From positions 1 to 24,190 of IMG/VR virus record IMGVR_UViG_3300021425_000192: a DNA stretch of 24,190 bases, one strand, 5' to 3'. Under the pieces are notes generated by a model. It had not been told where the DNA came from, did no database searches, and saw nothing but the letters and a program-made list of their open reading frames with translations. This DNA comes from a virus. Below, in pieces: positions 1,144 to 21,128 of the stretch. The position numbers were made by a program, and so were the translations under genes. How positions within the stretch are numbered: position 1 is the stretch's first letter; the number at the start of each line of letters is the position of its first letter.

Positions 1144-2064
1144 TTAATTATTCCCTAAACTTAAGTTAGAGCTAGGCGTGGTTATACTTAAATTGCTAAG
1201 ATCCGCAAATTGAGTTGTAGTATTTCCTGTGCTATTACCAGTACCGCTAAAAGCATTTATAATTGTTGGTGCAGCGCTTAAAATATTGCTAAACAAGTCA
1301 CTGTTTGCTTCTTGCTGCGCTTGAGCCGTTTCAGTTTGCCCGGCTAATTGTTGAGCAGAAAAGCCTAAAGCTAAAGCTTCTCTTTCTGCTTGCATTTGTT
1401 GTACGCTCATAGCGCCTTTAGCTTCTAGCTTTTGAATATCCATACCAGCTTTACCTCTAGCAAAATCAATTTGTCTTTGTGCATCAGCAATTTTAAACTC
1501 AGCCTGTCTAGCTTGTTCAGCGCCTTGAGCTTTTAATCTTTCGTTTTGAGCTTCTTGACTACCAATGTCTGCGGCTATTTGTTGTCTAACTTGCGCGTTT
1601 TGTTTAGCTAAAAGTCCAGCAATACTAGCTATACCAGCAGCACCACCAGCACTAGCTCTAGCACTTTGTAGCACAGCCGCTTGTGACTCCTCAGCCATTT
1701 GCCTTTGATAATCTGCAGATTTTAAATTAACAGTCAAGTCTTCATACTTGTTCTCTGTAGATATTTTTGATAACGGATTTTCAAGACCTTCAAAAGCGTT
1801 AGTCATACCAGCAAAAGGATTTGATATTTCTGCGCTAGTAAAAGCGTCTAATTGACTTTGAAATTCAGCTTGTTGTTGAGCTAAATTTTCATCGATTATG
1901 TCGTTTTCTTTACCGGTCATATACCCACCAAGACCACCAATGATTGCTCCACCAATAGCGCCAACAGGTCCAGCCGCTGCTCCGCTAGCCGCACCTGACA
2001 CTGCTCCACCTAGAATATCTGTAAAAGTGTTCTTTAAAGGACTTTTTAATTCTCCGTAACTCAT
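1144..2064 (-). CDS. Ejection-type internal virion protein with glycine-zipper segment
   Basis: A 306-residue protein. Residues about 17-50 are a Gly/Ala-rich hydrophobic stretch with repeated small-xxx-small spacing (GGAVSGAASGAAAGPVGAIG and onward), a glycine-zipper membrane-insertion type. After a linker comes the block YEDLTVN near residue 107, then a long Ala/Gln-rich helical region (about 115-250) including ASAGGAAGIASIAGLLAKQN and IGSQEAQNERLKAQGAEQAR. The tail is Ser/Thr/Asn-rich. This architecture is what I associate with podoviral internal or DNA-ejection proteins (T7 gp14, P22 gp7/gp20 type) and with a family common in marine phages. It follows the giant stabilisation gene, as expected for an ejection protein. 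Likely role: leaves the virion with DNA and helps form the envelope channel. No enzymatic motif is seen. Confidence 0.7.
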   Translation of the reverse strand: MSYGELKSPLKNTFTDILGGAVSGAASGAAAGPVGAIGGAIIGGLGGYMTGKENDIIDENLAQQQAEFQSQLDAFTSAEISNPFAGMTNAFEGLENPLSKISTENKYEDLTVNLKSADYQRQMAEESQAAVLQSARASAGGAAGIASIAGLLAKQNAQVRQQIAADIGSQEAQNERLKAQGAEQARQAEFKIADAQRQIDFARGKAGMDIQKLEAKGAMSVQQMQAEREALALGFSAQQLAGQTETAQAQQEANSDLFSNILSAAPTIINAFSGTGNSTGNTTTQFADLSNLSITTPSSNLSLGNN

Positions 2065-2093
2065 TTTATTCTTTTATTATATTATTATTACAT

Positions 2094-5000
2094 CTATTTA
2101 CTGCTTTCTATAGCGTTTAGCGCTGCTGAAAACAGCTCAGATTTATTATTGAAGTCATTGTTTCTCCATACAACTCTTGCGTAGTAACCTTTAACGCTTG
2201 AATGTTCAACTGGGCTAGACGTTGAAGTAATCACAATCTCAAGAAGACTGTTAGGATTAAATATAGGACTACCAGTTACATAATCTGTGTTAGTTGTAAC
2301 GTTCGCAAAGTTTCCAACACCTAGTGTTAAGTCAGTTACTATTTGTCTAGAATTAAACGACTGTATAAGACCAAGACTTTCGTTTTGACCTATAGATTCT
2401 CCTAGGCCGAATATCTTCACGCCTCCATCTGAGTCTAACGAATCAGGGTCAAATCGAGTAATTCTTAACTCCATAAGCGACTGTATAGAAGATAAATCTA
2501 TAACCCCATAATCAAAAGTTATCACTAATCTTTGACTACCGTCAGGATGCGGTGTAATACTAATAGGATTTCCTAAAGATACGTTTAGTTTTTTATTAGC
2601 TTCTTCCGCGTTTAACGCTACAGCGTTTGATTTATGCATGAAATTATTATGCCACTTATTTTCTTTGTTTTTGAAATTGATTGACATACCTACTTCTAGA
2701 TCTGTTCTAGCATCACTAACCCACCATCCATCATGCGCTAAGTTTGTTGATAAAACCCTGTCGTTTGAATTAGGTATAATTTTAGCTTGAGATCCTTCGT
2801 AGTTAATATAAGTAAAGTCTTTTACTATTCCAGGTGACTCGTTATATATCAAAGCAACTCGTGGCTCTTGACCAGTATAATTTCCTTGATGATAACCAAC
2901 ATGATAACCATAAGCAGCGCCTTCGTTGTCGTGGTGATAAGTTCTTGCGTTTAAGTGACTGAAATATTGATTTTTCAAACTATAACCTTGTGCACTAGCA
3001 TAATATGTATGAAAACTAGTCCAAGTGTCTAGACTTTCGTCCCAAGCAATAACAAGACCTTCGTTTATTGGATCTTCAATATCTAAAGCTTTAAACGTTT
3101 GACTAGATATTAAATACTCGCCTTTATCAATATCGTAGCTACCGAAAAGATAATCTTCACCTTCTCTAGCTTCAGTTAAATATTCTTTAAAGTACGAGTC
3201 CATACCTTCATCAGATATTAATGTCATACCATCTTTTGATAATCTTATAACAACGCCTCGCTTAGCGTCTGTAAAATAAGATCTAAAACCGTAATGAGCA
3301 AAAGATTCTGGATTATTTGATATACCGTATTCTCCATCAAAAGCAATAGACTGTCCTAAAACCCTATTTGTAGCTAGTAGCTCTGGATTTGAGTCAGCTT
3401 TAAATATAGCGTCTTTATTAGATAAAACTTTTAGAATCTTATCTTCACAAAGAACAATTAAGTCGTTAGCTCGAGAAAATAGTTTTTGTACTGTACCGTG
3501 ATCAGGATTAAACCTTTTAGTTATACCTAAAGCTTCTATAAACTGATTGGTCTCATTAAAATTACTGTAAGAGTTGTATATTCCTGAGAAAATTAAACCT
3601 TCACCAACCTTAACTTCAGCATAATCATCATATATACTAGAAGCTTTTACACCTTTTTGTATTCTAGCTCCATTAAAACTGTTGTTAGCTGTAGATATTT
3701 CTATACCATTACCAAAGCAGAAACAATTGTAATAAGGCAAAGCTATAGGTAGAACTAAATCATTTACCAATCTAAAGTTAGATAAATGAGTATGTCTTTT
3801 AACGAGTATAGTATTACTGTTAACAACGCTTTGAGCAACAGTAACATATACGTGCTCTCCAACGTTTAATCTTCCGCCTCTGTATTCTTGAATTTTTAAT
3901 ACTACATGGTCAGGAGCTGGTGGAACAGTTATAGTAACAGCTTGATCTAATGTTAACTCTGTAAAAATATCATCGTTTATACTATGTCTACCAACGTTGG
4001 TTCTAACACCTGTAACTACTATAGGCGTTAAATCTACTTCATCTAAAATGCTAACGGCGCCATCACCGTCTACGTCGCTAGTGTATAGTTGTGGGAAAAA
4101 TGTATCACCAGCCTGAACATTACTATTTAAACTTAAAGAACCGCCAGGACCAGGTACTAAAGTTGAATAATAATAAGCTTCAACCATACGCCCAACTTTA
4201 ACAAACTGCTCGTCAGTATCGTCGTCTAGTACAATAGGATAAGCTTGTGAAGCTTCGTAATATAAATCCGTATCGTAATTAGGTTTAGGCCTTGTTTCAA
4301 ATACACCTTGAGTTTTAGCTGTGTTAGGGCCAGGCAGCGGACCTATGTCATTATTTACTATTAAAGGTCTGTCTGTTTTAACATAAACAAAAAACTTACC
4401 TTCAAACTGAGCTACCTCGTCAGAAACATCTCCTCCATCGGTGTCTACTAAAAGCTGTGGTGGTGGCTCATTTGTTATTCTTTGAACAATATACTCTAAA
4501 GTTAAATTATCAGGCTCATAAAAGTTTGTCATGTTTGAAAGCGCTGGATCTGGAGGACCAGATCTTCTATGAGCTCTTTTTTGAACTAATACATCACCTT
4601 CTTGAACTTTATTTCTATGATCAGAGCTAAATATTAATACACTGTTAGCCCCTTCTGATATACTAGCGTTTATTTCTTCAATACTAGTTTCATCTACAGT
4701 ACTATCTTCTATAAAATGCAAAACTTGCTCTAACGGTAAAACGTGATAGTCTAACGATGTATCTTTAACGAAGAACTTATAAGACTTAGCCCAACTAGGA
4801 TGTGGGTTTTTAACAGATACAGTTAGCCTTTGTGTTTTATTAGCGTCTTCTGGACCTACCTTTATAACAGCTTGCCTGTTGGTTAATACAGGTGTTTCTC
4901 TACCAAGCTCATCTCTATAAACAATACCAACTTGATAAGATCTAAAAGACTTTATAGATTCTTGTGGTATTCCAAAATTAGGATTAACACCTGAGTATAT

Positions 5001-8000
5001 GTCTTCAAATAATTCTATTACACCATCGTCTGAACTAATACCTACAGACACTGGACTTCCATCAGGACCTAAAATTTCTGCTTGTATTTGGTTTACATAA
5101 GTGTATAGTCCAACTTCAAGATTAACTTTAACATCGCTTGATGCTATGATTTGTCCAAGATCTTCGTTTGTAATTGCGTTTTCAACTAAGTTGTAATCTT
5201 TCAAATAATTTCCATACACAACTCTATTAGCTGTAACTTCTTGAGCTTTAGCATTTCTTGGAACTGAGTCGAAAGGCCTTAACATTTGGTTAGGATCTAT
5301 TGTTAAACCTAAAGTGTTAGCGTTAAACGGATGTAATCCAGTATAAGATCCGTTAGCTGGTAGATTAAACTCACCGTCTCTAAAGTCGTATTTTTTTACA
5401 GCATATATATTTGTTGCTTCTTCACTTTTAACTAAAAGCTCTACCGCCTTAACATCATGAGGTATATTTTTAGGTGCCCAGTCTATTAATCTAAGTGATT
5501 TTATTTCGTTAATTAAAGATATATAAAAGTTTGGCCAATCAATTTTTTGATTTAATGTTCTCCAAATAACAGTTGTAAAAGGAGCTAAACCAGAATACTC
5601 ATTATCTTCATACTGGTATCTATAAGAAAATCTTAACATAGCTTCTCTTAAAGCTCTTTCATCACTAAGCCTATCGCTGTTATCTACTTCAGACTCTAAA
5701 CCTACAGACCAAACTTGAGGAAGTGGTGGACCATAATACCTATAGTCTCCGTCTGGTGTTAAGCCTTCGTGACCCCAACCTTGAGGAGCCGTAAAATAAG
5801 GTGACTTTCTGTTTTGAGCATCTTCAGGAAGTAAAGCTGCGTTTTTAGTGTGATCACCTTGACCTATAGTTTGTAAAGTTCCACCTCCACCTTTTCTTAA
5901 AAAATTTCTACTCAAATCACATCTAAGTGTTGGATCTAATGGTTTTTTAGCGTTATTTTCTATTATTCTAATAGTAACAACGTATTGACTAAAATGATGA
6001 GTTGTCGAGAAAAAGCTTGGCGGCAAGTTTATATTATTACCGTCAACACCTACTACAACCTCACCTGCAGGGTTAGTTCCATCATTAAAAGTTCCATTAA
6101 CTAACTTGTTGTTTAAAAATATAAACTTTTGCGTTAAGTCGTTGTAATAGTTGCCTAAGTTATCTTTCCAACCGTTTTCATCAAACACTCCGTTTACTAC
6201 AGCGCCACCACCATTAGGTCGCATGTTTATGTGCTCAATTTTTTCTATTCTTGCTCTAACTCTATCAGCAAAACCATCGTGCCTTCTAGTAGCATACCTT
6301 GCTAAATTTGTACCTTCGTAATACATTACGCCGAGATCTTGACCACCACCACCGCCAACTAATGGGTTGCCGCTATCAAGTATTGAATGGTCTGTACTGT
6401 AAGCGTTTGGCCCTCCTTGAGAATAATCAACGTCAGTATATTGACCAACAGCTTTACTGTTTCTAACGTTACCTTGTCCTTCTAGCACAATTATATCTCC
6501 TACTTGAAAGCCGTGCGGCTGCACTACAAATCTACCTGGGCCAGTAGGTCTAAAAGCTCCATTTTCATTTTGTTCTATTCTACCATTATGAAGATAGCTT
6601 TCCATACCCGCAGGGTTTCCAATACCCCAATATTCATTAATAGCAGCAATATTATCTAAAGGTCCAGATAAATTAACTTGAGAAAATAATCCACCTAAAT
6701 GATAAGCTTTGTCTACAGGGTGACTGTTAGGCGTTAATGGACCTGACATTGTGTTGAATTGATAGAAAATATCACCTTCAGGATTTGCGTCACCTGAATA
6801 ACTTCCACCAGGACTAAAGTATTGAAGCACTTCAGTGTTGTCGGATGCTGCGTTAGCGCCTCTAATACCACCTGTTCCTCTGTACTGAAAAAACAAGTCT
6901 AAATCTCCTGGATCATCTACACTGTTGTTATACTGCGCACCATCCCAAGAATAACCACCTACTTGAGCTATTGGGCCTCCAGTGTAGAGTATATGCCCTC
7001 CGGTTGGATCATCAGGTAAGTCAAAAGGATAAAGTTCTATTAAATTAAGAAACCCTGAGTTTAAGTATTTTTTAAATACAGGGTATGGCACGGCTTGATT
7101 GTTGTCTGCGTCTACAATGTTGGTCGGAAAATCTGAATGTACTGGAAACATAAGCGTCTGTATGTCAAACTTGTCGTATTCTCCATATCTTGTAGAATTG
7201 TCAGACATACCTAAAAATCCAGCACTAGCACCTATTTCCTCTTGATATAATATATATGAATCGTAACCGCCGATATATTCTCTACCAAAACCTCCAGCCC
7301 AAGCGTTCCAACCTAAAGTATCAGGAACGTCAAGAGTTAAACTTGCTCTAAAATCAGCTATTTGATCATTAGCCATAGCATCCCAGTTACCACCAAGTAT
7401 ATGTTCAAAGTTGTAAAAACTATCTACTTCAACATTGTACACTCCACCAACGTAACCAGTATTTTGCAGTTGACCCGGCCCTTCTGTTGGAGCCATAAAT
7501 CCAGCTTCATTCAAAAACGCAATAGGAAATTGTAGAACTTTACCTTCTGGGTGATTAGGATGTATAGGAAAAGGATGTGTCATAACACCTCTTGTTTTAC
7601 CTACTATACTATTTTCGCTGCTTATAGCGCCACCTGAAATATCTGTTAAAACTTTCAAGTGCTCTTCAGGGTTTGGTCTTAAAACTGTGCAGTGTGATTC
7701 AATCACACCACCTAAGCCTGTATTAATAGCATTAGCTGCTATAGCGCCATTAGGATGATGACCTGTAAAATCCCACTCAGGTACGCCTTGAAAACCTATG
7801 TTGTCGTCTGAGTTTTCTTTTAAAAGTCTAGTATGGAAAAATCTTCTATCAGTAATCCAGTCAGGATATATTGATTGCGCATCAGATAGTGTTCCGACTC
7901 TAGATCTTAATATATTTATTTTTTTAGGCTCGTTTTTAGAGTCTGTAAAAAATATTAACCCATCAAAAACATTTATACCAGTTATGTATCTATTACCGTA

Positions 8001-9632
8001 GTCAAAGTCTAATATTCTTTTAGACTTAAAAACAACATTATTGAAAGGAGGTATTATAGCGTTAATAAAAACGTTTTGATCATCTTTTAAATAAATTCTA
8101 TAATTAGCTCTATCAACATAATCTACGTATATAGCGTCTATGTCGTCATTAATAGGAGCAGCGTTAGGCTGTACAGTAGCTTCAGTACCTATTATGTTGT
8201 CGTACTGATAAACACGCATGTCTTCTCTAACGTCTAAGTTACGCATGTTGAAACCATCAACATCAAGTTGTATATACGATCTACCTTCGTTATCAACGCC
8301 ATACTCACTTACGCCAGATCTTATTTCATAGACATCGTTAAATATTAAGTCCATTAAACCCATGTCTGTAACGCCACCGCTATTTGTCATACTTTGCGTA
8401 GGCTCATACTCATATATAGCGTCAGATCTAATAACAACGTTTCTTCCGCTTATTCCATCTGGTGGTAATACTTGAGGATCTACAACTGGAGGCTCTACAA
8501 CTGGAGGATCTACAACCTCGCCGTCTTCGTTTACATAGTATCCTGGCACGCCATCTTCAAAACTACGGAACAAAGTGTTAAAGCAATAACCATTAGGAGC
8601 GTCCTCCATTCCAAGTAGCTCATTGACGCCAAGCCCGTCTTGATCAATATTTGTTATCTGTTGAAATAAGCCAGAAAAATAAAAGGTAGAGTTATTTAAA
8701 GGTCCAGGATTTTCATCAAATTGACCATTAAATACTAATTCGTTGAGATCAGGAATTGCATCATAAATAGTTATGATACTACCTTCTACTTCTACCTGAA
8801 TTAGCCCTCCACTAGCAATTTCAATAATTTCTTTAAGATTTTGTGCTTTTTGTTCACCGCTTTCAGCGTGAGCCATAAAGTATGTTGGACCATAACCAAC
8901 GCCCGACAACAAATCACCGTTTTGAGGATTAGCAGGGGCATCTGGAAGAAATTGATTGTCAAATCCACCGTTTTCTGGAGATGGCTCGTAATAAATAGTA
9001 ATAACATTGCTTAATATAGACTCACCGGAGTAAAATGTTGGAAACACATAGTCATTAAACCTAATATAAGCAGCTCTTCCAGCAAAAATAGTAACGTCCG
9101 GTAATACATTACCAGCGGCTATGTCATTTTGATTTCCTCCAACCCCTTGGCCGTCTTCGGCTAAACAGCTAGTGTCATAATTCCCATCAGTAAAGCTAAA
9201 GGTAAAACTTCTAGGTGTTCCAGGAACAAACACAGGATCGGTAGGATCTACTACTGGTCCACCTACATCTGGCCCGCCTACTATTGGTCCTCCATCTTCT
9301 GGAAAAATGTTGTTAACGTGTACTGAGTCTTGTACAAAATGATAGGCTAGGTCGTTAGCTTTGTCTACAGAAGTACCTACTATTTTAGCACTTGCAAAGC
9401 CTGTTAGTCTAGGTCCAAAAGTATTATTAGGAAGATCTCCTTGATGTCCCCAACGATCTAATGCTATGATTTCAACGTTAGCTCTAATAGTTTCTAGCGC
9501 TCCTTGATTACCTTCAGAAGAACTACTAACTCTTATATTTAAAGCCTCACGGTATAAACCTTGGCCTACTAACCTCTCATCAAGGTCAAGATTCATTCCA
9601 CCTTTAACAAAAGTTCTTTTTAACTCAGCCAT
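2094..9632 (-). CDS. Giant tail stabilisation / muzzle-type protein (2512 aa)
   Basis: The N-terminus has VKGGMNLDLDERLVGQGLYR and EALNIRVS, the signature I associate with the stabilisation/muzzle family of crAss-like and marine phages. Other family-like blocks are YITGINVFDGLIFFTDSKNE and PKKINI (about 547-575), FSYRYQYEDNEYSGLAPFT (about 1334-1352), VTANRVVYGNYLKDYN (about 1460-1480), GEYGISNNPESFAHYGFRSY with SKDGMTLISDEGM (about 2094-2150), and a C-terminus of KGYYARVV then ELFSAALNAIESSK. Expected role: distal part of the short tail, sealing the channel below the connector rings (compare P22 gp10/T7 gp12). It is unusually long. Residues about 140-370 form a module bounded by Pro/Gly pentapeptide repeats, and about 690-1320 is Gly/Asn/Tyr-rich sequence I cannot assign. 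The ATG at 9632 follows the connector gene by 2 nt. Confidence 0.85.
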   Translation of the reverse strand: MAELKRTFVKGGMNLDLDERLVGQGLYREALNIRVSSSSEGNQGALETIRANVEIIALDRWGHQGDLPNNTFGPRLTGFASAKIVGTSVDKANDLAYHFVQDSVHVNNIFPEDGGPIVGGPDVGGPVVDPTDPVFVPGTPRSFTFSFTDGNYDTSCLAEDGQGVGGNQNDIAAGNVLPDVTIFAGRAAYIRFNDYVFPTFYSGESILSNVITIYYEPSPENGGFDNQFLPDAPANPQNGDLLSGVGYGPTYFMAHAESGEQKAQNLKEIIEIASGGLIQVEVEGSIITIYDAIPDLNELVFNGQFDENPGPLNNSTFYFSGLFQQITNIDQDGLGVNELLGMEDAPNGYCFNTLFRSFEDGVPGYYVNEDGEVVDPPVVEPPVVDPQVLPPDGISGRNVVIRSDAIYEYEPTQSMTNSGGVTDMGLMDLIFNDVYEIRSGVSEYGVDNEGRSYIQLDVDGFNMRNLDVREDMRVYQYDNIIGTEATVQPNAAPINDDIDAIYVDYVDRANYRIYLKDDQNVFINAIIPPFNNVVFKSKRILDFDYGNRYITGINVFDGLIFFTDSKNEPKKINILRSRVGTLSDAQSIYPDWITDRRFFHTRLLKENSDDNIGFQGVPEWDFTGHHPNGAIAANAINTGLGGVIESHCTVLRPNPEEHLKVLTDISGGAISSENSIVGKTRGVMTHPFPIHPNHPEGKVLQFPIAFLNEAGFMAPTEGPGQLQNTGYVGGVYNVEVDSFYNFEHILGGNWDAMANDQIADFRASLTLDVPDTLGWNAWAGGFGREYIGGYDSYILYQEEIGASAGFLGMSDNSTRYGEYDKFDIQTLMFPVHSDFPTNIVDADNNQAVPYPVFKKYLNSGFLNLIELYPFDLPDDPTGGHILYTGGPIAQVGGYSWDGAQYNNSVDDPGDLDLFFQYRGTGGIRGANAASDNTEVLQYFSPGGSYSGDANPEGDIFYQFNTMSGPLTPNSHPVDKAYHLGGLFSQVNLSGPLDNIAAINEYWGIGNPAGMESYLHNGRIEQNENGAFRPTGPGRFVVQPHGFQVGDIIVLEGQGNVRNSKAVGQYTDVDYSQGGPNAYSTDHSILDSGNPLVGGGGGQDLGVMYYEGTNLARYATRRHDGFADRVRARIEKIEHINMRPNGGGAVVNGVFDENGWKDNLGNYYNDLTQKFIFLNNKLVNGTFNDGTNPAGEVVVGVDGNNINLPPSFFSTTHHFSQYVVTIRIIENNAKKPLDPTLRCDLSRNFLRKGGGGTLQTIGQGDHTKNAALLPEDAQNRKSPYFTAPQGWGHEGLTPDGDYRYYGPPLPQVWSVGLESEVDNSDRLSDERALREAMLRFSYRYQYEDNEYSGLAPFTTVIWRTLNQKIDWPNFYISLINEIKSLRLIDWAPKNIPHDVKAVELLVKSEEATNIYAVKKYDFRDGEFNLPANGSYTGLHPFNANTLGLTIDPNQMLRPFDSVPRNAKAQEVTANRVVYGNYLKDYNLVENAITNEDLGQIIASSDVKVNLEVGLYTYVNQIQAEILGPDGSPVSVGISSDDGVIELFEDIYSGVNPNFGIPQESIKSFRSYQVGIVYRDELGRETPVLTNRQAVIKVGPEDANKTQRLTVSVKNPHPSWAKSYKFFVKDTSLDYHVLPLEQVLHFIEDSTVDETSIEEINASISEGANSVLIFSSDHRNKVQEGDVLVQKRAHRRSGPPDPALSNMTNFYEPDNLTLEYIVQRITNEPPPQLLVDTDGGDVSDEVAQFEGKFFVYVKTDRPLIVNNDIGPLPGPNTAKTQGVFETRPKPNYDTDLYYEASQAYPIVLDDDTDEQFVKVGRMVEAYYYSTLVPGPGGSLSLNSNVQAGDTFFPQLYTSDVDGDGAVSILDEVDLTPIVVTGVRTNVGRHSINDDIFTELTLDQAVTITVPPAPDHVVLKIQEYRGGRLNVGEHVYVTVAQSVVNSNTILVKRHTHLSNFRLVNDLVLPIALPYYNCFCFGNGIEISTANNSFNGARIQKGVKASSIYDDYAEVKVGEGLIFSGIYNSYSNFNETNQFIEALGITKRFNPDHGTVQKLFSRANDLIVLCEDKILKVLSNKDAIFKADSNPELLATNRVLGQSIAFDGEYGISNNPESFAHYGFRSYFTDAKRGVVIRLSKDGMTLISDEGMDSYFKEYLTEAREGEDYLFGSYDIDKGEYLISSQTFKALDIEDPINEGLVIAWDESLDTWTSFHTYYASAQGYSLKNQYFSHLNARTYHHDNEGAAYGYHVGYHQGNYTGQEPRVALIYNESPGIVKDFTYINYEGSQAKIIPNSNDRVLSTNLAHDGWWVSDARTDLEVGMSINFKNKENKWHNNFMHKSNAVALNAEEANKKLNVSLGNPISITPHPDGSQRLVITFDYGVIDLSSIQSLMELRITRFDPDSLDSDGGVKIFGLGESIGQNESLGLIQSFNSRQIVTDLTLGVGNFANVTTNTDYVTGSPIFNPNSLLEIVITSTSSPVEHSSVKGYYARVVWRNNDFNNKSELFSAALNAIESSK
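8476..8520 (-). repeat. 15-bp tandem repeat, three copies, encoding VVDPP-type pentapeptides
   Basis: On the plus strand the units are ggatctacaactgga, ggctctacaactgga and ggatctacaacctcg. The second differs from the first by one base and the third is degenerate at its end. Read on the minus strand within the giant tail gene they encode VVDPP, VVEPP and VVDPQ (residues 373-387), continuing into VLPPD. A more diverged pentapeptide run, GGPIV-GGPDV-GGPVV-DPTDP (residues 114-133), lies upstream in the protein at 9234-9293. Proline-rich runs of this sort usually act as stiff linkers. The near-identical DNA of the first two units suggests recent slippage expansion. Confidence 0.85.
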
Positions 9633-20318: not shown

Positions 20319-20596
20319 TACTTAGATCTTCCCTCAGCAAAGCCTTTAAACACTCTTTCTTTTTTTTCTTCAGGCTCTTTGCCTTCTATAATATTTTCTT
20401 CTTCTTGAATACGATTAAGTATTTCAAAAGCATCAAATATAGCTAACTTTTTAGTTGCGGCTGCATTTTTTAGTCTATCAGCGGAAACATCATCTTCAGT
20501 GTTAGTTATTATTTGCTCTTCAGCAACTTTTATTAACTCTTTAACTGCTTTGTGCCCAGCTTGGATTATAAATCTCTTCGTTTCCTTGATACTCAT
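20318..20596 (-). CDS. Small helical protein, candidate terminase small subunit (92 aa)
   Basis: The protein is predicted helical and charged. Its centre, DDVSADRLKNAAATKKLAIF then DAFEILNRIQEEENII (35-70), is a pattern I associate with a small gene directly before the large terminase in marine phages. The C-terminal 20 residues are basic and Gly/Lys/Arg-containing. It overlaps the GroES-like gene by 56 nt in another frame at its 5' end, and its stop overlaps the terminase ATG by one base. Position and size suit a small terminase subunit that recognises DNA and regulates the motor, but I cannot see a definite helix-turn-helix, so this remains a position-based proposal. The ATG at 20596 is preceded by AAATTAAAT-like A/T sequence. 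Confidence 0.65.
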   Translation of the reverse strand: MSIKETKRFIIQAGHKAVKELIKVAEEQIITNTEDDVSADRLKNAAATKKLAIFDAFEILNRIQEEENIIEGKEPEEKKERVFKGFAEGRSK

Positions 20597-21128
20597 ATTT
20601 AATTGTAATAAATTGATTATGCACTCTAAAAAGTCTTTTACCTTCTAGTAAAAACTCGTATTGAGAAAAAGGCGTGTAGCTAACTACGTCACCTTGTTTA
20701 AACTTTTTGTTGCCGTAAACAACAACACCTTTGTTAGGATGCTCGACTTTTCTATTCATTGATAACTCTTCTACAAAAGGCTGTACAAAGCAATAATCTT
20801 GTAAAGGCTTCCACTCATCTCTTTTATAAGCGTAAACTTGGTCTTTTTGAACAAAGTACTTATTGTCTTCAAAATAGCTTTTACTATTTTTTTCTCTACC
20901 TTTTACATCGTACCATCTTCTAAAAACGTTATGATGAACTAATACTATGTCGCCTTTTTTAATTTCTGTTTCAAAAGACATAGGTAAAGATATTACTCTT
21001 GCTAATCTATTAACATACTTAGCATCTTCTATGCTAGTGTTTATTATTAGCTCTTTATCGTCAACATTAACAGAGTTTTTATATCTACTGCCAATAGGCT
21101 CTACTATATAGCTATTTATAGATTTCAC
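20541..21128 (-). CDS. GroES-like co-chaperonin with two tandem GroES-type halves (195 aa)
   Basis: Each half resembles GroES. In the N-half (about 6-101), SYIVEPIGSRY stands for the first strand, RLARVISLPMSFETEIKKGD then IVLVHHNVF (41-69) for the GkVvaVG...vkvGDkVlf core, and YFVQKDQVYAYK for the end strand. In the C-half (about 106-179), WKPLQDYCFVQPF, KGVVVYGNKKFKQGDVVSYT and FLLEGKRLFRVHNQFITIKY repeat the plan. Phage GroES-type proteins such as T4 gp31 pair with host GroEL to fold the capsid protein; a similar job is likely here, just upstream of packaging and capsid genes. The start is a GTG at 21128 overlapping the upstream TAG by one base (TAGTG); a TGA lies only three codons upstream and the next ATG would remove the first strands. 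Function is inferred from fold resemblance. Confidence 0.7.
   Translation of the reverse strand: MKSINSYIVEPIGSRYKNSVNVDDKELIINTSIEDAKYVNRLARVISLPMSFETEIKKGDIVLVHHNVFRRWYDVKGREKNSKSYFEDNKYFVQKDQVYAYKRDEWKPLQDYCFVQPFVEELSMNRKVEHPNKGVVVYGNKKFKQGDVVSYTPFSQYEFLLEGKRLFRVHNQFITIKYEYQGNEEIYNPSWAQSS

Follow-up and report, generated by a model that had tools for sequence, protein, structure and literature searches.

The muzzle protein gp44 of crAss001 is a propeller interrupted by inserted domains, with IG1 lying between blades 2 and 3 and IG2 in blade 3, and muzzle lengths vary through insertions, which can affect surface properties (accessible part of PMC10172136). The T7 nozzle gp12 and its relatives have a seven-bladed propeller with inserted domains (accessible parts of PMC6702177, PMC10575957, PMC9509320). 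The T-even adhesin gp38 has hypervariable segments, reshuffled among relatives, in between its glycine-rich motifs (accessible parts of PMC6630733, PMC12529663). We analyzed a stretch of viral DNA of 24,190 nucleotides (IMG/VR record IMGVR_UViG_3300021425_000192, positions 1 to 24,190; hereafter the window), in which the product of a long open reading frame, 2512 residues, is by its sequence a crAss-like muzzle (tail-tip) protein. Residues 108-396 of this protein are a discrete insertion, present or absent as a unit among relatives, and this module is diverging more rapidly than the remainder of the protein. Comparison with one close relative suggests that recombination replaced its core as an allelic block, the junctions lying just within two repeat-built arms.

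A sequence-only reading of this stretch had pointed to about 240 beta-rich residues of the giant protein, flanked by pentapeptide repeats, as a discrete inserted domain. Alignment of homologues bore out the insertion. Six IMG/VR relatives (L001-L005 and L051) had 50-87% identity to the window protein over their best segments. From the conserved N-terminal part to the strand IYEY/IYEH there were approximately 270-320 residues in the window, L001, L003, and L002, and approximately 10-30 in L004, L005, and L051, where the flanks are joined by a short linker. For the wider family, 53 muzzle loci were found and 34 were examined for alignment, giving 31 rows (the window plus 30 loci). Those left out were L041 (a duplicate), L014 (whose motif did not fit the search pattern), and L018 and L036 (near copies among the 32 usable loci); L005 also misfitted the pattern and was entered by hand. 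The other 19 loci, mostly of the near-identical L017 group, lie outside the alignment, as do loci that came up only in a separate search. The homologous domain was carried by 4/31 aligned muzzles and by 4/7 of the close clade. Counted between the alignment positions of residues 134 and 372, the four carriers had 214-249 residues and the other 27 rows 0 to 31. A profile of the module, run against all six frames of loci L001-L081 and the window, found only the four carriers and their duplicate records, the next match having an E value of 0.14. There was one copy each in the records of L001, L002, and L003 and none in those of L004, L005, and L051, records that are possibly incomplete. In a tree built from the sequence that follows the conserved ITGIN...TDSKNEPKK block, in which L017 forms one very long branch, the four carriers fell on one side of a single branch (support 87/91, below the starred level); this branching fits a single gain of the module.

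The features of the locus are as follows.

2094..9632, minus strand: crAss-like muzzle protein gene (2512 aa), so assigned by Pfam PF25731, phrog_14478, and a gene order as in Panino and ctfjg026.
9312..9632, minus strand: conserved N-terminal part, residues 1-107, with 107/107 residues identical to L001; the two predicted strands at its end are presumed to be strands A and B of the first blade.
8445..9311, minus strand: inserted module, residues 108-396, present in the window, L001, L002, and L003 and absent from L004, L005, L051, and 24 further rows.
9234..9293, minus strand: arm 1, pentapeptide repeats GGPIV GGPDV GGPVV DPTDP, residues 114-133, GGPIVGGPDVGGPVVDPTDP, a period-15 array of very low predicted confidence.
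8547..9212, minus strand: divergent core, residues 141-362, read from divergence against L001 and its 20-codon steps as a probable exchanged block.
8763..8858, minus strand: best-predicted part of the core, a helix (259-274) and strands (279-283 and 286-290), with ten-residue confidence block means of 80-92 in both models.
8457..8516, minus strand: arm 2, pentapeptide repeats VVDPP VVEPP VVDPQ VLPPD, residues 373-392, VVDPPVVEPPVVDPQVLPPD, a tandem array near-identical to that of L001.
8403..8438, minus strand: predicted strand, residues 399-410, VVIRSDAIYEYE, presumed to be strand C of the blade that the module interrupts; in L004, L005, and L051 it follows the N-terminal part via a short linker.

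The evidence for exchange comes from L001, which forms with the window the one pair of alleles close enough for this comparison found among the muzzle loci. In blastn alignments with L001, the outer pieces of the window were 95.2% and 95.3% identical and the piece 1246-8562, covering most of the muzzle gene, was 92.0% identical; inside the module only a 145-base piece aligned, at 80%. Synonymous divergence (dS) over the core (residues 134-372, 215 aligned codons) was 1.33, with a nonsynonymous divergence (dN) of 0.32. Elsewhere dS was 0.07 (1-107), 0.10 (arm 1), and 0.05 (arm 2), and past arm 2 it was 0.25 (397-700), 0.44 (701-950), 0.37 (951-1300), and 0.22 (1301-2350); dN outside the core was 0.00-0.14. 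The proportion of synonymous differences (pS) was 0.10 over residues 108-133 (26 codons) and 0.05 over 373-396 (24 codons). In 20-codon steps it went from 0.06 (121-140) to 1.00 (141-160) at the left edge and through 0.65 (341-360), 0.20 (361-380), and 0.06 (381-400) at the right, although the sites behind any single step are few and the arms comprise 24-26 codons, so that the pooled core value is the most reliable. Just inside each arm, silent difference shifted roughly tenfold over a stretch of 20-40 codons. In seven other genes the comparison with L001 gave pS values of 0.07-0.24 and nonsynonymous proportions (pN) of 0.004-0.045; across 37 windows of 200 codons from those genes pS peaked at 0.33, and the highest value in muzzle windows of that size clear of the module was 0.36. 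Because selection on the protein alone would leave silent differences unraised, whereas a block of different ancestry would raise them, we read the core as probably replaced by recombination. The sequence-only reading had placed the limits of the module at the repeats. The module is indeed discrete, but its strongly divergent core extends from about 141 to 362, slightly inside the arms, and the insertion relative to homologues from about 108 to 396.

Protein identity was compared between residues 397-2512 and the core, 134-372. For L001 it was 1965/2114 and 128/215 (with 24 gaps), for L003 1677/2098 and 61/186, and for L002 1360/2067 and 46/166, respectively. In 50-residue windows the module had the lowest identities against both L001 and L003, with core residues 251-300 at 80% to L001; against L002, belts at 801-850 and 2401-2450 were nearly as low as the module.

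Other parts of the muzzle also vary. A second and milder belt of variability lies at residues 701-850 (window 7083-7532), where identity was 68-80% to L001 and 11-51% to the other five relatives; the neighboring residues 601-700 and 851-900 (three 50-residue windows) were 88-100% identical to L001, and dN over 701-950 was 0.136. Between the NEPKK and YRYQYEDNEYS blocks (residues ~590-1320, window ~5670-7870) there are approximately 700 residues, compared with approximately 26 in the short muzzle L017, a large insertion. A smaller inserted region, IFNDVYEIR... (residues ~412-535, window ~8030-8400), lies in the same blade as the module and is present in long muzzles and absent from those of the L017 type.

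The repeats noted at residues 114-133 and 373-392 were recovered by Tandem Repeats Finder as two period-15 arrays. The array in arm 2 DNA (8470-8516, 3.1 copies) scored 80, the top of 18 rows for the window, and that in arm 1 DNA (9248-9290, 2.9 copies) scored 51. Among 300 codon shuffles of the gene, a score of 80 was reached by 1 and a score of 51 by 13 when any period was allowed; period-15 arrays scoring at least 51 appeared in 0/300 shuffles versus two in the real gene. The arms are alike in DNA: six 30-nt copies, three per end, make up a single family of direct repeats and are 60-100% identical to the reference copy. Variation of arm length between strains, which had been anticipated, was found: both arms are longer in L001, arm 1 by 30 nt and arm 2 by 27 nt, and the 15-base motif was not found, at up to 2 mismatches, in the left arm of L001. 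The description of the arms as proline-rich holds for the window, where the repeats have very low predicted confidence as noted below, but not for all carriers: L002 has the related domain with no proline-rich stretch at the arm positions, and in L003 the first arm is acidic and the second is proline-rich without the pentad. Because L002 has the domain without them, the pentads do not appear essential to it; they look like an embellishment of one sub-lineage, with the domain independent of them. Since the arms are direct repeats of each other, in-frame deletion of the module by recombination between them is conceivable; no deletion scar was seen at the junctions in L004, L005, and L051, and we do not claim loss by this route.

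Two structure models were used to examine the position of the module. In the model of residues 1-627 (of 2512), strands were predicted at 83-90 and 95-107 before the module and at 399-410 after it, and the predicted local distance difference test (pLDDT) fell below 50 at 108-130 and 379-397, as for flexible segments. A model of the module alone, built with four sequences, had a mean pLDDT of 65 and a predicted template modeling score (pTM) of 0.70, with blocks of 87-92 in the helix and hairpin. The core, described earlier as beta-rich, is predicted to combine alpha and beta elements, residues 259-274 forming a 16-residue helix; the existence of the module itself stands. A MAFFT alignment with short muzzles and crAss001 gp44 placed the insertion in a short turn between the presumed second and third strands of the first blade, upstream of the crAss001 IG1 site; crAss001 itself has a short turn at the insertion point. 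With low confidence, the insertion would interrupt the first propeller blade at the hairpin that joins strands B and C. Propellers in general have their B-C loops and the links between blades on one face. This position would place the module on the distal side of the muzzle.

Searches with the module sequence gave no Pfam family for the window (at E up to 5), L001, or L002; in L003 a match to SidD (E 0.031, 13.9 bits versus a cut-off of 27) was taken as chance. In PHROGs the only match was phrog_28344 at 0.043, for L002, and the best E value in a PDB sequence search was 0.14. Neither tblastn against phages nor blastn against plasmids gave any match to the module. Foldseek with the module found nothing at E 0.001 in PDB or BFVD (best BFVD E 0.0048), and with the 1-627 model it gave one BFVD match (E 5.8e-4) that was not used (TM score 0.12, root-mean-square deviation 22.8). 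In VIA-align searches, in neither of which any row reached Z 8, the 1-627 model matched flank-spanning ranges of several proteins, which we take to be propellers, at Z 4.6-4.8. The module region of that model matched T7-like nozzles at Z 5.8-6.5 (three rows), PhiTE at 6.3, and FliD at 6.0. With the module alone all rows were at or below 4.8, the T7-like nozzles at or below 4.5 and tied with tail sheath, FliD, and flagellin. We regard these matches as leads, because the shared features may be common arrangements only.

The assignment of the gene to the muzzle family combines several observations. PF25731 (crAss muzzle) matched residues 5-109 (E 6.6e-8, 31.6 bits versus a curated cut-off of 27); the ITGIN block named in the sequence-only reading lies at residues 550-571. 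The PF25731 cut-off was also passed by L001 and L004, and the family was unlisted for L017 and for Cellulophaga phi38:1. The C-terminal profile PF25729 (crAss_MUZ_C) was unlisted at E 0.01 for the window protein, L001, L004, and L017 and present in phi38:1. The protein matched phrog_14478 with E 5.3e-92, and PHROGs scans of five neighboring genes gave one portal, three virion structural, and one unknown-function match. Maribacter phage Panino and ctfjg026 share with the window the series terminase, portal, unknown, structural protein, smaller genes, and giant protein, and this order puts the giant gene where a muzzle is expected, after the terminase-portal-structural series and small tail genes. 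Of the 87 phage records that the terminase matched, 86 have Flavobacterium, Cellulophaga, Tenacibaculum, or Maribacter in the phage name; the closest match, at 63.8%, was a contig from Manatee Spring. Because two scans of genome contigs gave no relative, the host is drawn from the terminase only, and the phage likely infects flavobacteria. Among the neighboring genes, the one downstream of the muzzle (1144-2064, minus strand) had glycine-zipper matches below the Pfam cut-off, and approximately 90 nt around 1160-1245 in the window are absent from L001. The gene at 20541-21128 (minus strand), shortly upstream of the terminase, matched no Pfam family at E 0.01; in Panino this place holds a gene annotated as a GroES co-chaperonin.

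We propose that residues 108-396 are an accessory domain in the B-C hairpin loop of the first propeller blade, carried on two flexible proline-rich arms. Through homologous recombination in the flanks and arms, which are conserved, the core would be replaced and would act as an exchangeable cassette, and the short repeats would let arm length drift by slippage. Less certainly, six copies of the module may face the cell from the outside of the muzzle hexamer and touch a receptor, glycan, or capsule on the host surface, and changes in host surfaces may favor exchange of the core. Because the module is peripheral, flexible, fast-evolving, apparently exchangeable, and missing in some relatives, host-surface contact is its most likely role, and a plausible one. 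We consider this explanation as a whole, from accessory domain to host contact, modestly probable.

Several observations weigh against it. The exchange was read from one close pair, the window and L001, and pattern scans found no third allele or donor, although these scans were insensitive, one made with the window's own module having missed L001. Against L003, dS was 1.34 (108-133), 1.26 (134-372), and 1.30 (373-396), and 0.46-0.95 elsewhere. The arms are a conserved frame (dS 0.05-0.10) around a hypervariable segment (1.33) only in the window/L001 pair, because against L003 they are as diverged as the core. Three relatives in the clade have no such domain, so a muzzle can exist without the module. 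The 1-627 model is weak (mean pLDDT 60, pTM 0.45, residues 1-81 below 50), and the blade assignment leans on the short MAFFT alignment, because a profile comparison with crAss001 gp44 aligned residues 7-62 only, with a probability of 11%. Finally, no match in the sequence-family, PDB, or Foldseek searches points to receptor binding.

The main rival is a docking or bracing domain that binds a tail fiber, a ring protein, or a neighboring muzzle subunit and changes with that partner, not with the host. T7 gp12 has a fiber-dock element and in SU10 a loop docking the short fibers extends blade 1 (accessible parts of PMC6702177, PMC10575957, PMC9509320), and the weak fold similarity to part of the T7-like nozzles agrees with such a role. 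The seven other genes showed no matching jump against L001, although the partner gene may lie beyond the shared 18.6 kb, and we judge docking unlikely. A loosely constrained spacer domain, drifting fast in place without exchange, would account for the high amino acid divergence, the indels, the absence in relatives, and the equal divergence of arms and core against L003. Relaxed selection raises dN and not dS, however, and against L001 the silent difference jumps at both ends of the core and exceeds that in every 200-codon window clear of the module; drift of this kind is distinctly improbable.

Targeted hypermutation by a diversity-generating retroelement (DGR) or otherwise would also diversify the module. 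Variable regions of DGRs are marked by adenine-specific substitutions without indels. The core differs from L001 by all six substitution types, with 112/214 substitutions involving an A and many indels over a block of approximately 670 nt, and we give this mechanism very little weight, no search having been aimed at a template repeat or a reverse transcriptase, although DGRs that act on tail proteins have been described in crAss-like phages (accessible part of PMC12386605). Least credible is that the region is integral to the muzzle fold and the repeats incidental. The sequence-only reading had named homologues with the region but not the repeats, as part of the core fold, as telling against a separate domain; L002 is such a carrier without repeats, yet the whole region is missing from L004, L005, L051, and the 24 further rows.

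The accessory, exchangeable domain that we favor would have a further consequence. To our knowledge, host choice by crAss-like phages is poorly understood, and the muzzle has been discussed mainly as a gate. The tail gatekeeper may itself be a determinant of host range, with an exchanged recognition domain set on repeat-built hinges of a gate-forming propeller blade, so that host contact could couple mechanically to opening; this we offer tentatively, as a possibility that we do not hold to be probable. A muzzle domain exchanged as a block between phages approximately 95% identical would mark a spot where the gatekeeper may meet the host. It would also be an example, within a core virion protein, of an exchangeable domain held between repeat-coded arms of variable length.

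Compared with the systems described above, the first-blade site, the repeat arms, and the apparent block exchange seem to be new, none having been found in the open-access literature searched; the kind of variation is already known, in that muzzles vary through insertions (accessible part of the crAss001 paper). In T7-like nozzles, residues ~140-249 align with the module region over 93-97 residues (three rows); judged from the residues named in the accessible part of the T7 paper, we take them to be the nozzle-tip region. With Z under 8, and at most 4.5 for the module alone, this is a lead and not membership. CrAss001 gp44 belongs by PF25731 to the same family and is likewise a propeller with inserted domains, but its paper, in its accessible part, assigns the insertions that vary to the crass and IG2 regions (PMC10172136), whereas here the insertion is in the first blade, with repeat arms and apparent exchange. 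The T-even gp38 is a fiber-tip adhesin with a known receptor role, whereas the window module is a loop insertion in a tail-tip protein, with a putative role in host contact. In both, conserved low-complexity motifs frame a hypervariable segment, and in its way of working gp38 is the nearest system to the window module.

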